This document shows positions 11,505 to 42,611 of a DNA stretch of 64,000 nt, piece after piece. This DNA is from Blattabacterium cuenoti (lineage in GTDB: Bacteria > Bacteroidota > Bacteroidia > Flavobacteriales > Blattabacteriaceae). The notes beneath the pieces were generated by a model that saw nothing but the letters and a program-made list of their open reading frames with translations, did no database searches and had not been told where the DNA came from. The DNA lies in assembly GCF_014251995.1 (NCBI RefSeq), contig NZ_CP059205.1, positions 248,001 through 312,000 of the forward strand. Reading direction: 5' to 3'. Every line of letters begins with the position of its first letter. The first letter of the stretch is position 1. The position numbers and the translations under genes were made by a program.

Positions 11505-13007
11505 ATGGTAAAGAAATTAGAAGATATATTGAAAAATGTAAATATTTTAAAAATAATAGGAAAAGATATTTCTAGACGAAATGTAGAAGGAATTTCTATA
11601 TGGTCTAATGTTATTATCAATAATATGATTTTCGTCGCTAAAAAAGGAAAAATAACAGATGGACATAAATTCATAACAAAAGCTATTAAAAATGGAGCAA
11701 TCAGTATTGTTTGTGAAAAAATACCTTCCTATCTTCATAAAAATGTTGTTTATATTCTTGTAAAAGATTCCCTCAATGCTTTAGGAATTATATCTTCCAA
11801 TTTTTATGATAATCCTACGAAAAATATTAAACTAGTAGGAATTACGGGAACAAATGGGAAAACATCAATAGCAACAATACTTCATCAGTTATTTTCTAAA
11901 ATGGGGGAAAAAAATATTCTTATTTCCACCATGGGAATAAAAATATTATCCAATATATATCCTACAGAACATACCACTCCGAATATTATTGAAATTAATA
12001 AATATTTAAATCTATCAATCCGTAAAGGGTGTAAATACGCTTTTATGGAAGTAAGTTCACATGGAATTCATCAAAAAAGAATTTCAGGATTATTATTTCA
12101 AGGAGGTATTTTTACTAATATTACACATGATCATTTAGATTATCATAAATCTTTTAATCATTATTTAAACACTAAAAAACTTTTTTTTGACAATTTATCT
12201 AATACTAATAATAATTCTTTTGTATTAATCAATTCAGACGATAAAAATTCATGTAAAATTGTAAAAAATATTTTGTCAAAAATTTATTTTTACGGATTTA
12301 GAAAAACCGCAAATTTTAGGTGTAAAATATTAAAAAAAAATATTTTTGGAAGTTTAATACTTATTGATGGAAATAAAATTTTTACTAATCTAATTGGAAC
12401 ATTTAATGTTTATAACTTGTTAGCAAGTTATGCGACAGCTATTTTATTAGGTAAGAAAAAAAATGATATTCTGAAAAACATTAAGAATATAAAACCTATT
12501 AAAGGAAGATTTGAACAATTTGTATCAGATTCAGGAATCCGTGTTATTGTAGATTATGCTCATAATCCAAATGGATTAAAAACTGTTTTAAATACTATTC
12601 AAGAAATAAAAGATAATAATGTAAAATTAATATGCGTTATAGGTTGTGGAGGAAATAGAGATGTAAAAAAACGTTCTTTAATGGGAAAAATTGTTTATGA
12701 TATGTGTGATGTACCTATTTTTACGTCTGATAATCCTAGAGATGAAGAAATAGAAAAAATACTAGTTGATATGAAAAATTTTAAATCATATTCTAATGTG
12801 AGAAAAAAATCTATTTTAACTATTTCAAATAGAAAAGAGGCTATTAAAATGGCAATTGAAATTGCAAAAAAAAAAGATATTATTCTTTTATTTGGAAAAG
12901 GACATGAAACTTATCAAGAAATAAAAGGAGTACGTTTTCCTTTTAATGACATGGAAATAGTTAGAGAGTTATTAAAAACTAAATCACCTAAAGTTTGTGA
13001 AAAATAA
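11505..13007 (+). CDS. murE: UDP-MurNAc-L-Ala-D-Glu:meso-diaminopimelate ligase
   Basis: MurE adds the third stem-peptide residue in the cytoplasm using ATP. The P-loop TGTNGKTS (Lys119) and the central motif EVSSHGI are present. The specificity motif reads DNPRDE (residues 409-414); DNPR is the meso-diaminopimelate form, whereas lysine-adding enzymes differ there. This agrees with dapF in the same window. Length 500 is typical. It starts right after ftsI and its end overlaps mraY by 11 bp, so the genes are translationally coupled. Confidence 0.96.
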   Translation: MVKKLEDILKNVNILKIIGKDISRRNVEGISIWSNVIINNMIFVAKKGKITDGHKFITKAIKNGAISIVCEKIPSYLHKNVVYILVKDSLNALGIISSNFYDNPTKNIKLVGITGTNGKTSIATILHQLFSKMGEKNILISTMGIKILSNIYPTEHTTPNIIEINKYLNLSIRKGCKYAFMEVSSHGIHQKRISGLLFQGGIFTNITHDHLDYHKSFNHYLNTKKLFFDNLSNTNNNSFVLINSDDKNSCKIVKNILSKIYFYGFRKTANFRCKILKKNIFGSLILIDGNKIFTNLIGTFNVYNLLASYATAILLGKKKNDILKNIKNIKPIKGRFEQFVSDSGIRVIVDYAHNPNGLKTVLNTIQEIKDNNVKLICVIGCGGNRDVKKRSLMGKIVYDMCDVPIFTSDNPRDEEIEKILVDMKNFKSYSNVRKKSILTISNRKEAIKMAIEIAKKKDIILLFGKGHETYQEIKGVRFPFNDMEIVRELLKTKSPKVCEK

Positions 13008-14202
13008 TGATAATTTTTTATTTGAATCATTGAATTCTTGTTTTCTTTTAATCAATATTAATTATGTTTTTTTCAGAGCTGTAGTTTCCTTTTTTTTATC
13101 ATTTTTCATAGCATTAATTTTTTACAAAAAATTTATATATTGGAATAATGCAAAAAATAATATAAGAGAACATATACGTGATCTCGGGCTTATTGGGCAA
13201 AGAGAAAAAGAAGGGACTCCAACAATGGGAGGAGTTATAATGATATTATCCACATTAATTTCTACTATGCTATTTTCTTCTTTGAAGAATAAGTATGTTT
13301 TTATATTAGTCTTGACAACATTTTGCATGGGTTGTATCGGATTCTTAGATGATTATATTAAAATAAAATATAATAAAAAAGGACTTAGTGTAACAGGAAA
13401 AGTGTTAGGACAAATTTTAGTAGGTATTTTAATTGGAAATAATATTTATTTTCTGAATATAAATTCTAATGAATCTATTAAAAAAGTAAATTCGAAATTT
13501 TTTAGGAAAAAAGAATACAGTATTAAAACAACTTTTCCGTTTTCCTTATCTAATCAAGGAAATGAGTTTGACTATTCTTGTATTTTAAACCGATATAATA
13601 AAAAATGGAAAAAATATATATGGATTATTTTTATTCCTATGGTAATTTTTACTATTACATTTTTATCTAACGGAGCTAATTTAACTGATGGTATAGATGG
13701 ATTGACAGCAGGAATATCTTCTATTATTTTCTTTACTTTATCTTTAATCTCTATTATTTCCAGTAATAAAATATTTTCATCAAATTTCAATTTGATATAC
13801 ATTCCTCATTTAGAGGAAATAATTATATTTTCTTTTGCTTTTATAGGTTCCTTAATAAGTTTTCTTTGGTATAATACTTATCCAGCCCAAATTTTTATGG
13901 GAGATACTGGTAGTTTAACTATAGGTGGAGCTATAGCAACTATAACTATTATAAATAGAAAAGAATTAATATTACCTATTTTATGTGGAATTTTTTTTAT
14001 GGAAAATATTTCTGTAATAATACAAGTATTATATTTTAAATTTTCTAAAAAAAAATATGGAATAGGTAAAAGAATTTTTCTTATGGCTCCTTTGCATCAT
14101 CATTTTCAAAAATTAGGATATCACGAGAATAAAATTTTCATTCGTTTTATTATTATCCAAATAATTCTTTCCATATTAACGGTAATTTTATTAATAAAAT
14201 AA
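12997..14202 (+). CDS. mraY: Phospho-MurNAc-pentapeptide transferase MraY
   Basis: MraY transfers phospho-MurNAc-pentapeptide to undecaprenyl phosphate to make lipid I. It is a polytopic protein of about ten membrane segments with EGTPTMGGVIMI (about residue 70), the acidic pair GFLDDYIKI, NGANLTDGIDGLTAG (about 226-240), FMGDTGSL and the His motif MAPLHHHFQKLG near the C-terminus. Length 401 includes a Bacteroidota-style insert around residues 150-200. The gene begins inside the 3' end of murE and ends three bases before murD. Confidence 0.96.
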   Translation: MKNNDNFLFESLNSCFLLININYVFFRAVVSFFLSFFIALIFYKKFIYWNNAKNNIREHIRDLGLIGQREKEGTPTMGGVIMILSTLISTMLFSSLKNKYVFILVLTTFCMGCIGFLDDYIKIKYNKKGLSVTGKVLGQILVGILIGNNIYFLNINSNESIKKVNSKFFRKKEYSIKTTFPFSLSNQGNEFDYSCILNRYNKKWKKYIWIIFIPMVIFTITFLSNGANLTDGIDGLTAGISSIIFFTLSLISIISSNKIFSSNFNLIYIPHLEEIIIFSFAFIGSLISFLWYNTYPAQIFMGDTGSLTIGGAIATITIINRKELILPILCGIFFMENISVIIQVLYFKFSKKKYGIGKRIFLMAPLHHHFQKLGYHENKIFIRFIIIQIILSILTVILLIK

Positions 14203-14204
14203 TA

Positions 14205-15580
14205 ATGAAAAAAAAACTATTGGTAATATTAGGAGGAGGAGAAAGTGGAATTGGAGCAGCTTTACTAGCTAAAAAAAATGGATTAAAAATATTTTTATCC
14301 GATTCAGGAGTTATTTTAAATAAATACAAAAAAATTTTAATAAAAAATAAAATTCCTTTTGAAGAAAAAGGTCATTCAAAAAATATAATAACTAAAAAAG
14401 CTGCAAAAATAATAAAAAGTCCTGGAATTACTAGAAATAACTCTTTTATAGAGAAAATTAATCTTTTGAATATTCCTGTTCAATCTGAATTAGAGTTTGG
14501 AAAAAGTTATCTAGATCAATCTTCTTATATTATCAGTATAACAGGAAGCAACGGTAAAACAACCGTTTGTTCGATAATTTATAAAATTCTTAAAGAAAAT
14601 AAAATTAATGTAGGAATAGGTGGTAATATTGGACGTAGTTTTTCTAGAGAAGTTATAAAAAAAAAAAAAATTATGTATTAGAAGTAAGCAGTTTTCAACT
14701 AGATGATTGTTCTAATTTTAGATCTAATATTGCAGTTTTATTAAATATTACAAGAGATCATTTAGATAGATATGACAATAATATTGAAAATTATATGCAT
14801 TCTAAATTTAGAATAGCAACTTTACAAAAAAAAGAAGATATTTTCATTTATAACTATGATGATCCTATCATAAGAAAGGGATTAAAAAAATATATTATTT
14901 CCTCTAAATGTATTCCTTTTTCTATAAAAAAAGAGTTGAAAAATGGAGCTGGAGCTTATGTAAAAAATAGCAAAATATTTATTAGAAACCAAAAAAACGA
15001 AGAAATATGTTTTTTAAATATAAAAGATATTCCACTATTGGGAGATCATAATATTTATAATATTATGGCTTCATTAATTATATCCGAAATATTTAATATA
15101 AATAAAAAATCGGTAATACCTATTATTTTAAAATTGAAACCTATAAAACATCGTATGGAAAATATATTCCATATAAATGGAGTTAAATTTTTTGATGATT
15201 CTAAAGCTACAAATGTTAATGCCGTTTTTTATGCATTAAAACATATAAATAAACCCATTATATGGATAGCAGGCGGAAAAGATAAAGGTAATAACTATGT
15301 AGAATTAGTTCATTTAGTTAAAAAAAAAGTTAAGGCTATAATTTGTTTAGGTGAACAAAATGAAAAAATTGTTTCTTTTTTCAAAGAAATTATTGATATT
15401 ATTCTGGAAACAAAAAATATTCAAGAAGCTGTATATATGGCTCATATATTGTCTACTTCTGGAGATAACATTTTATTATCTCCTGCTTGTTCCAGTTTAG
15501 ATCTTTTTAAAAATTATAAAGAAAAAGGAAACAAATTTAAAAAAGAAGTAAGAAAACTTTTCTATGAAAAAAAAGGATGA
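14205..15580 (+). CDS. murD: UDP-MurNAc-L-Ala:D-glutamate ligase, reading frame interrupted at a poly-A tract
   Basis: MurD adds D-glutamate to UDP-MurNAc-L-alanine. The first part (14205-14681 to its stop) carries LGGGESGIGAALLAKK and the P-loop SITGSNGKTTV; the rest continues in a different frame from about 14669 with NYVLEVSSFQL and NITRDHLDRY and ends with the family C-terminus, including FFDDSKATNVNA and ILLSPACSSLDLF. The join falls exactly in a run of 14 A (14657-14670). A run of 15 or 12 A would restore one frame of about 458 residues, the usual size. All motifs on both sides are intact, so this looks like a gene rescued by slippage, or a homopolymer sequencing error, and not like old decay. 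Its end overlaps ftsW by 17 bp. Confidence 0.9.
14657..14670 (+). repeat. Poly-A tract (A14) at the murD frameshift
   Basis: Fourteen consecutive A bases lie where the two murD frames must join. In the zero frame the run leads to the stop codon TAG at 14679-14681; a net gain of one A (or loss of two) gives continuous coding. Such tracts are known slippage sites for RNA polymerase in AT-rich endosymbionts. Confidence 0.95.
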
Positions 15581-16760
15581 AAGAAATAGATATTTCAAAT
15601 ATTTGAAAGGAGATAAATATTTATGGGCTTTTATATCCTTGCTAGCTGTATTTTCTTTTCTACCAGTATATTCCGCTAGTACTAACCTGGTTAGTACATA
15701 TGGAGAGACGAATACAACAGCCTTTAGTTATTTATTAAAACACGCTCTCTTTTTGTTAGTTGGTTTTTGTATTCTTTTTTTCACTCAATTTATAGATTAT
15801 AAATACTTTTACCGTATGTCTGTATTTTCTATTCCTATAGTATTTATATTATTAATATTTACTATTATTCAGGAAAAAGAATTGGACGGAGTAAATGCTT
15901 CTCGTTGGTTGCATATTCCTTTTATTAATATATCTTTTCAAACTTCTAGTATTGCTGGACTAGTCCTTTTTATCTATTGTGCTAGATATTTAGCTAAAAA
16001 AAATAAAGAAAATATCAGTATCATTAATTCTTTTTTTCCTTTATTATTTCCAATATTTTTCATTGTAGGACTTATTTTTCCTGCCAATGGTTCTACTGCA
16101 ATTATTGTTTTTATTTCTGTTTTAATCCTCCTTTTTATAGGAGGATATCCATTAAAAGGGATTATTATGATTTCATTAATGGGAATTTTATTTTCAGGAA
16201 TTTATGTTTTTTCCGTTATAAAATGGGGGGATAAAAATCCTGCAAACAGAGTTTATACATGGAAAAGTCGTATAGAAAAATTTTTTAATCATGGATCTGA
16301 AGAAAGTTATCAAATGAAACAATCTAAAAATGCTATTGTTTTAGGAAATAAATTTGGAAGAGGTCCTGGTAAAAGCGTTTTAAAAGCTTTTCTTCCACAA
16401 TCTTCTTCAGATTTTATTTATTCTATTATAATAGAAGAATATGGATCCTTTGGAGGAATGATTCTTTTATTCATTTATCTTTTAATTTTACTCAGAATTA
16501 TGATAATAGCTACAAAAGTAAAGAATCATTTTTGTTCATTATTGGTACTTGCTGTAGGACTCCCTATTATTAATCAAGCATTAATTAATATGGGAATAGC
16601 TGTAGGATTGTTTCCAGTAACAGGACAAACTTTACCACTTATTAGTGCTGGAGGAACCTCTATGTGGGTTACTTTTTTTAGTTTTGGAATTATATTAAGT
16701 GTTAGTCGAATTATATATGAAAAAAAAAATTCAACTGATAAAATTGTAACTAACTCATGA
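15564..16760 (+). CDS. ftsW: Septal peptidoglycan glycosyltransferase FtsW (SEDS family)
   Basis: FtsW is the SEDS polymerase that makes septal glycan strands with FtsI. The 398-residue sequence has about ten membrane segments and family motifs GVNASRWLHIPFINISFQTS (about 110-129), PANGSTAIIVF, the loop QMKQSKNAIVLGNKFGRGPG with IIEEYGSFGG, and the C-terminal FPVTGQTLPLISAGGTSMW. It starts inside the end of murD, so its translation probably depends on the ribosomes completing murD; this makes the murD frameshift relevant to ftsW expression. It overlaps murG by 4 bp (ATGA). Confidence 0.95.
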   Translation: MKKKDERNRYFKYLKGDKYLWAFISLLAVFSFLPVYSASTNLVSTYGETNTTAFSYLLKHALFLLVGFCILFFTQFIDYKYFYRMSVFSIPIVFILLIFTIIQEKELDGVNASRWLHIPFINISFQTSSIAGLVLFIYCARYLAKKNKENISIINSFFPLLFPIFFIVGLIFPANGSTAIIVFISVLILLFIGGYPLKGIIMISLMGILFSGIYVFSVIKWGDKNPANRVYTWKSRIEKFFNHGSEESYQMKQSKNAIVLGNKFGRGPGKSVLKAFLPQSSSDFIYSIIIEEYGSFGGMILLFIYLLILLRIMIIATKVKNHFCSLLVLAVGLPIINQALINMGIAVGLFPVTGQTLPLISAGGTSMWVTFFSFGIILSVSRIIYEKKNSTDKIVTNS

Positions 16761-42579: not shown

Positions 42580-42611
42580 TTATAGATGTATTGAATTTTA
42601 CAAAATAAGTT

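Follow-up and report, generated by a model that had tools for sequence, protein, structure and literature searches.

A widely shared frameshift at a poly(A) run of murD in Blattabacterium, probably tolerated through recoding

The murD locus and its two reading frames

The stretch of DNA analyzed here (the window, 64 kb) spans positions 248001–312000 of G000, a Blattabacterium-type genome in a single contig of 628,453 bp. On its forward strand murD follows directly upon mraY (12997–14202), an intact open frame of the same cluster, and overlaps ftsW (15564–16760), which starts 17 nt before the murD end; the names mraY, ftsW and those of the other cluster genes are ones that we presume from position. 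The first murD reading frame (14205–14681, forward strand) runs from an ATG at 14205 to a TAG at 14679–14681 and encodes 158 amino acids, whose translation contains the MurD N-terminal domain and the portion of the central ATPase domain that holds the P-loop (SITGSNGKTTV), matched in Pfam by MurD_N and the start of Mur_ligase_M (profile positions 1–29 of 200). Its stop lies immediately 3′ of a run of 14 A (14657–14670, forward strand), the proposed recoding site, which the first frame reads as ATA AAA AAA AAA AAA ATT. The second frame, displaced by −1 (14669–15580, forward strand, 303 amino acids, its stop ending at 15580), is recognized by translation, Pfam and dN/dS; from 14669 it reads NYVLEVSSFQL...NITRDHLDRY and covers Mur_ligase_M profile positions 60–198 followed by Mur_ligase_C. 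Both pieces are also matched by MurD structures in the PDB.

The two frames thus meet inside the ATPase domain, 3′ of the P-loop and just 5′ of a strand bearing a glutamate that aligns, by the alignment ranges, with position 157 of the E. coli MurD chain 1e0d_A and that we take to be catalytic; the second frame encodes this residue together with the remainder of the central domain and the ligase domain at the C-terminus. The junction itself sits in a lysine-rich stretch whose length differs between relatives. The original prediction, that a frameshift at the A14 tract divides a murD of about 458 codons while both halves keep the MurD motifs, is confirmed by the translations, with which the Pfam and PDB matches agree.

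When the window was compared with five relatives, using open frames of at least 90 amino acids (a survey in which smaller frames could be missed), three places were flagged in G000, murD among them. The second, located at a T9 run, is a frame of 92 amino acids on the strand opposite the mraY-murD boundary, and the third is a difference in gene start near 42,610, away from any run; by our judgement murD would be the sole broken gene among the three.

Spread, run length and history of the break

To describe the locus across the genus, 49 genomes were scored as intact or split according to whether the second half of murD, found in all 49, is in or out of frame with the P-loop. The gene lies in one frame in 26 genomes and is split in 23, always at the same position, with a net change of −1, within a pure A run of 9–14. 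Recurrence of the same position and direction in 23 of 49 genomes places the break beyond chance. In 19 of these 23 genomes the first frame meets its stop 10 nt past the junction codon. An upstream Ser-Phe codon pair precedes the junction by 32 or 35 nt in 22; in the remaining one, G036, the motif search matched another site and the distance is not comparable, although the aligned length is nonetheless the same. Outside the genus, the P-loop and second half are in one frame across the site in seven records (L107–L113), which lack an A run of nine or more there (L107 has A7); in L112 the frame stops soon after. The murD split is therefore a real, conserved frameshift that is common to relatives, and the suggestion that the tract be compared in related strains has yielded the same break in 22 other genomes, against a sequencing error.

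The length of the run varies among split genomes while the phase is constant. The longest run is A9 in 14 genomes, A10 in one, A11 in four, A13 in three and A14 in one, and the A9 run is followed by G with the phase unchanged in all 14. Since these A9 genomes, 14 of the 23, are broken in the same phase, A14 is not the cause of the break, and the original view of A14 as its essential feature does not hold. In the tract alignment, which holds 19 split genomes (all 23 except the three distant ones and one located on the opposite strand), A14 looks like a secondary feature, produced by later lengthening through adjacent substitutions around an older 1-nt displacement, with balanced indels as a possible alternative origin. 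A run of at least nine A is present in 23 of 23 split genomes, and a shorter one in 6 of 26 intact genomes (Fisher p 0.024, a value that ignores relatedness). Selection on the purity of the tract was considered and dropped: conserved lysine columns elsewhere are all AAA in 58–71% of cases, so that three such columns are expected with 0.71^3 = 0.36, which is not significant, and the lysine-codon purity of the tract is not unusual on its own. The idea that slippage might also tune ftsW found no evidence in the overlap of the two genes, because a candidate ftsW start precedes the murD end whether murD is split (21 of 23 genomes) or intact (24 of 26).

On a tree built from nine neighboring proteins (3,783 columns), the split state follows the branching order, with 8 changes against 16.5 in shuffles. 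The main clade holds 24 genomes, 20 of them split, the intact ones being G042, G030, G044 and G046; here parsimony favors an ancestor that was already split, followed by four restorations, as such a root requires 4 changes where an intact one requires 6. The other three split genomes (G038, G029 and G014) belong to a distant clade of eight, which needs 2 changes if its root was split and 3 if it was intact. For the whole tree, 8 changes are required under either root state, and were the split irreversible, parsimony would need 14 separate gains. Three of the four in-frame main-clade genomes appear to be older published ones, where curation or sequencing error is possible. In G046 (L021, apparently from Nauphoeta), the A9 run is unchanged and a single frame has been regained by a 2-nt loss downstream, which alters the residues between the tract and the loss and keeps the glutamate; murD is split in its sister, G019.

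The hosts of the main clade include one of the Ectobiidae (Blattella) and several Blaberidae (Blaberus, Nauphoeta and Panesthia), according to the family assignments in a table of PMC6128925, which also dates the last common ancestor of the living cockroach families to 140 million years ago. A split that goes back to the root of the main clade would be older than the separation of the ectobiid and blaberid host lines; its age would then, as we infer, be near 100 million years. The split seems to have persisted while many cockroach lineages diverged, and apparently it has been undone several times.

Selection on the two halves and competing explanations

The selective regime of the second half was assessed in eight split-split pairs covering 13 of the 20 split main-clade genomes, with the three distant split genomes (G038, G029 and G014) outside the sample. 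Its dN/dS was 0.137–0.333, compared with 0.090–0.302 for the first half of murD and 0.148–0.382 for murC in the same pairs, and with 0.174–0.409 for the second half in eight intact-intact pairs. Comparison of G000 with G024, G036 and G023 gave 0.19–0.32 for codons 0–100 and 0.19–0.29 for codons 100–320; the close pair G015-G016 gave 0.73 in codons 100–320, a ratio that comes from few changes (12 and 4). The constraint reaches up to the junction: over the first 40 codons past the tract, nine of ten pairs have a dN/dS of 0–0.26 and one has no changes. Codon-position shares in the 20 split main-clade genomes were likewise similar for murD_N (0.28/0.14/0.59), murD_C (0.31/0.15/0.55) and murC (0.28/0.17/0.55). 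In a rough neutral simulation of six pairs, in which one sequence was evolved over the whole pair distance, 5.2–19.9 stops were expected in the second half, and at most 1 of 600 runs was stop-free. The second half of murD is thus under purifying selection in the main clade, as it is in intact genomes, which bears out the expectation that a cell-wall gene of this kind is not dispensable.

These data decide between several readings of the break. The gene might be a pseudogene, with peptidoglycan synthesis being lost or rescued by the host; loss of symbiont genes often begins with frameshifts, several pseudogenes are listed for Blattabacterium genomes (PMC6039017), and of the three distant split genomes, G029 and G014 also have a broken or missing ftsI-like gene and ftsQ, so that in these two the split may mark the onset of decay. 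For the genus this reading is most improbable: no further disabling changes are seen, and all 49 genomes, the 23 split ones among them, encode both halves at full length (no more than 20 residues missing at either end); the main-clade dN/dS resembles that of intact genomes where the simulation expects 5–20 stops; at least one genome has come back into frame through a second change; and no second MurD was seen in G000, the other matches of the search scoring at most 24 bits. An error of sequencing or assembly at the homopolymer is the least credible explanation of all. A run of 14 A is hard to sequence, and some curation effect on the older in-frame genomes is possible, but the run is only A9 in 14 split genomes and the split state follows the tree; moreover, split G016 appears to be the published Panesthia genome, and three of the split genomes are present also as named records (L104–L106). 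For the main clade the other split genomes and the selection on the second half rule out both of these readings, and with them the pseudogene alternative raised by the original prediction is answered there.

Two further readings accept that the second half is made. MurD might be produced as two separate pieces, the second re-initiated at an internal codon near the first stop, and 12 of the 23 split genomes indeed carry an ATG five codons past the junction, a few nucleotides from the first-frame stop, with a GTG there in 2 more and a TTG at codon 3, sparing the glutamate, in 4. Against this, 6 of the 23 lack ATG, GTG or TTG for at least 23 codons, and 2 of these have none in 100: the first usual start of the second frame is at codon 42 in G000, 41 in G005, 31 in G038 and 23 in G014, and G024 and G023 have no ATG, GTG or TTG in the first 100 codons. 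Pairs of genomes without such starts (e.g. G000-G024 and G024-G023) are still constrained in that stretch; re-initiation at the ATG would remove the E157-equivalent glutamate; the same ATG is found in the intact relatives L014 and L021; and a break inside the ATPase domain argues against separately made pieces. The missing start codons in six split genomes rule out re-initiation as a general explanation, and we consider it very unlikely. As the first 40 codons are constrained yet devoid of start codons in some split genomes, the second-frame stretch after the tract would hardly be reachable without a change of frame. That change might be made by the ribosome, −1 slippage on A_AAA_AAG or A_AAA_AAA turning an unaltered mRNA into full-length MurD. 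In the 14 A9 genomes the first-frame codons AAA AAA AAG contain the A_AAA_AAG heptamer, and longer runs contain A_AAA_AAA; every A-run event is −1, as such slippage would have it; and G000 has one tRNA-Lys, with anticodon UUU, among the 31 of 33 tRNAs that were typed (all except those at 99230 and 608909). A slippery heptamer is, however, a by-product of a −1 break in an A run, and the downstream RNA is not unusually stable (z −0.61 to +1.61), no stable structure being found in single folds of six sequences, five split and one intact, with pseudoknots outside the scope. Frameshift-prone heptamers of E. coli raise frameshifting 2.1–10-fold over a background of about 0.055% in the absence of stimulators, figures given for the class and not for A_AAA_AAG itself (PMC4066793), and Bacteroidia such as F. 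johnsoniae rarely use Shine-Dalgarno pairing (PMC8710568), which makes an upstream stimulator less likely. The sequence AAAGAAG occurs upstream of the tract in many rows of the alignment, intact relatives included, and encodes protein residues. Ribosomal slippage, the leading alternative, appears unlikely to be the main cause.

Recoding at the A run, known systems and neighboring genes

The reading that we find highly probable is that murD, a gene present once and normally essential, carries an old frameshift that is tolerated through recoding at the A run, and we consider it probable that RNA polymerase slippage is the main cause. RNA polymerase would slip on the run of 9–14 A and add an A, or a phase-equivalent number, so that only part of the transcripts is re-phased and encodes full-length MurD, while the remainder would yield a fragment (158 residues in the window) that stops soon after the tract. 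Because the frame would change in a lysine-rich stretch of variable length, ahead of the strand with the catalytic glutamate, the protein should be little affected. By this account full-length MurD is presumably made in the split genomes. The slippage proposed at the outset is supported insofar as recoding at the A run best explains the locus; polymerase and ribosomal −1 slippage are not separable by sequence alone, and it is the published slippage data that favor insertion by the polymerase. In Buchnera, homopolymers accounted for 151 of 157 insertions against 16 of 57 deletions of transcription slippage (PMC5574713); slippage that mostly inserts would make −1 breaks tolerable, as is seen in all A-run events, and the −1 bias could also be mutational in origin. 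The same study saw no reading frame put right through transcription error. A point against the polymerase is that 14 of the 23 split genomes have A9, one of the shorter runs on which this enzyme slips. Were the polymerase to slip often, shifted transcripts should also arise from the other three runs of at least 14 A in G000 (14–15 A), all of which are in frame within open frames: they lie in a dnaN-like gene (L101, 1415–2635, forward strand), at the start of a cdsA-like gene (L100, 865–1674, reverse strand) and, as read by eye, in a small open frame (L099 near 1592, reverse strand).

Poly(A) frameshifts rescued by RNA polymerase slippage are known from Buchnera and Blochmannia (Tamas 2008 and Wernegreen 2010; PMC3017870, PMC4389277 and PMC5009743), with 12–50% corrected transcripts for cell-wall genes of an aphid symbiont and a gene of an ant symbiont (PMC5009743), and with 30% full-length transcripts in earlier work cited alongside eight frameshifted genes of B. 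vafer (PMC3017870). The likeness to murD is close: the symbionts are AT-rich and live in insects, a long A run holds the break, the gene is otherwise intact and the frame is common to species, and the aphid-symbiont cases include cell-wall genes. Features of this endosymbiont type of slippage found here are the pure A run, a gene that is intact and selected (in the main clade) and the occurrence in several species. Our case differs in its lineage (Bacteroidota), its gene, its frequency (23 of 49 genomes) and its apparent restorations. The murD split is likely a new and unusually widespread case of this frameshift type; it is undescribed in the available parts of the Blattabacterium literature on frameshifts, murD, slippage and pseudogenes or homopolymers, where an earlier mention is possible. 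The tssM1 gene of Citrobacter, as described in PMC4256274, resembles it in a run of 9–11 A with a nearby stop, where slippage gives a longer product; both tssM1 products are needed, whereas the short murD product is probably useless.

The dnaX genes offer models of both machines. Thermus dnaX is a comparable system of transcriptional slippage, and in E. coli dnaX programmed −1 ribosomal frameshifting occurs at A_AAA_AAG with stimulators. The A9 relatives share with the latter the heptamer, the −1 direction and tRNA-Lys UUU as the sole tRNA-Lys typed, and differ from it in the lack of an unusually stable downstream structure and in a short product of no known use. Slippage in dnaX is also mentioned in PMC3017870.

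If our reading is right, tolerance of poly(A) frameshifts, known from symbionts of aphids and ants, also occurs in Bacteroidota and reaches a gene that is single-copy and normally essential. Split genomes with intact sister species would form a natural experiment on what the break costs, how much re-phased product is made and which machine is at work. Essential genes called pseudogenes in such genomes may, as a warning, be working ones. The pseudogene lists given for two Periplaneta symbionts in PMC6039017 include the normally essential metG, gltX, atpG and dnaN, which may be tolerated homopolymer breaks too.

The break in murD stands out by its frequency: it is found in 23 of 49 genomes, and no other gene of the cluster is broken at an A run in more than 5. 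Full-length products are encoded in 49 of 49 genomes by murC, ftsA, ftsZ and the first and last genes of the cluster, and in 48 by ftsW, 48 by mraY, 46 by murE, 44 by murG, 43 by ftsQ and 41 by the ftsI-like gene. These counts replace a first pass in which in-frame stops in other genes proved to be partly gene ends or overhangs. Breaks at A runs in murD, murE, murG, ftsW and ftsI amount by our count to 13 events, with sisters counted once and four origins for murD (10 if murD has a single origin, at the base of the genus, which the tree permits), and all 13 are −1 (two-sided p 0.0002 under even odds). G046 has further A-run breaks in ftsI and murG and may be a lower-quality genome; without it the count is 11 of 11 (p 0.001 on the same assumption).

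Near residue 33 of murG, a −1 break at A9–A10 is present in 5 of 49 genomes (G033, G021, G011, G046 and G003, within L050–L098), which makes four events with sisters counted once and marks murG as another place in the cluster where slips recur. A −1 break at A10–A11 interrupts murE in G019 (L071), G003 (L082) and G007 (L085), ftsW is broken by −1 at A11 in G024 (L054), and the ftsI-like gene by −1 at A10 in G046 (L070). Two genomes that are split in murD thus carry a further break, in ftsW (G024) and in murE (G019). It is conceivable, though doubtful, that the murD break is kept as a set-point, recoding throttling MurD and, through coupling, ftsW, so that wall synthesis and division stay low in a host-controlled symbiont, with the A-run breaks that other species have in murE, murG, ftsW and ftsI as further throttling steps on one pathway.

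The sole +1 case seen concerns mraY of G042 (L053), whose N-terminal part is displaced at a T9 run near the gene start; it may be a break of the opposite type, or may reflect a sequencing error or simply a different start site, and was kept out of the A-run count. In the L091–L098 region, G029, G013, G014, G022, G010, G009 and G039 have a shortened or absent ftsI-like gene, and all of these except G013 also a shortened or absent ftsQ; judging from these reading frames, division genes are eroding in some of the smaller genomes.
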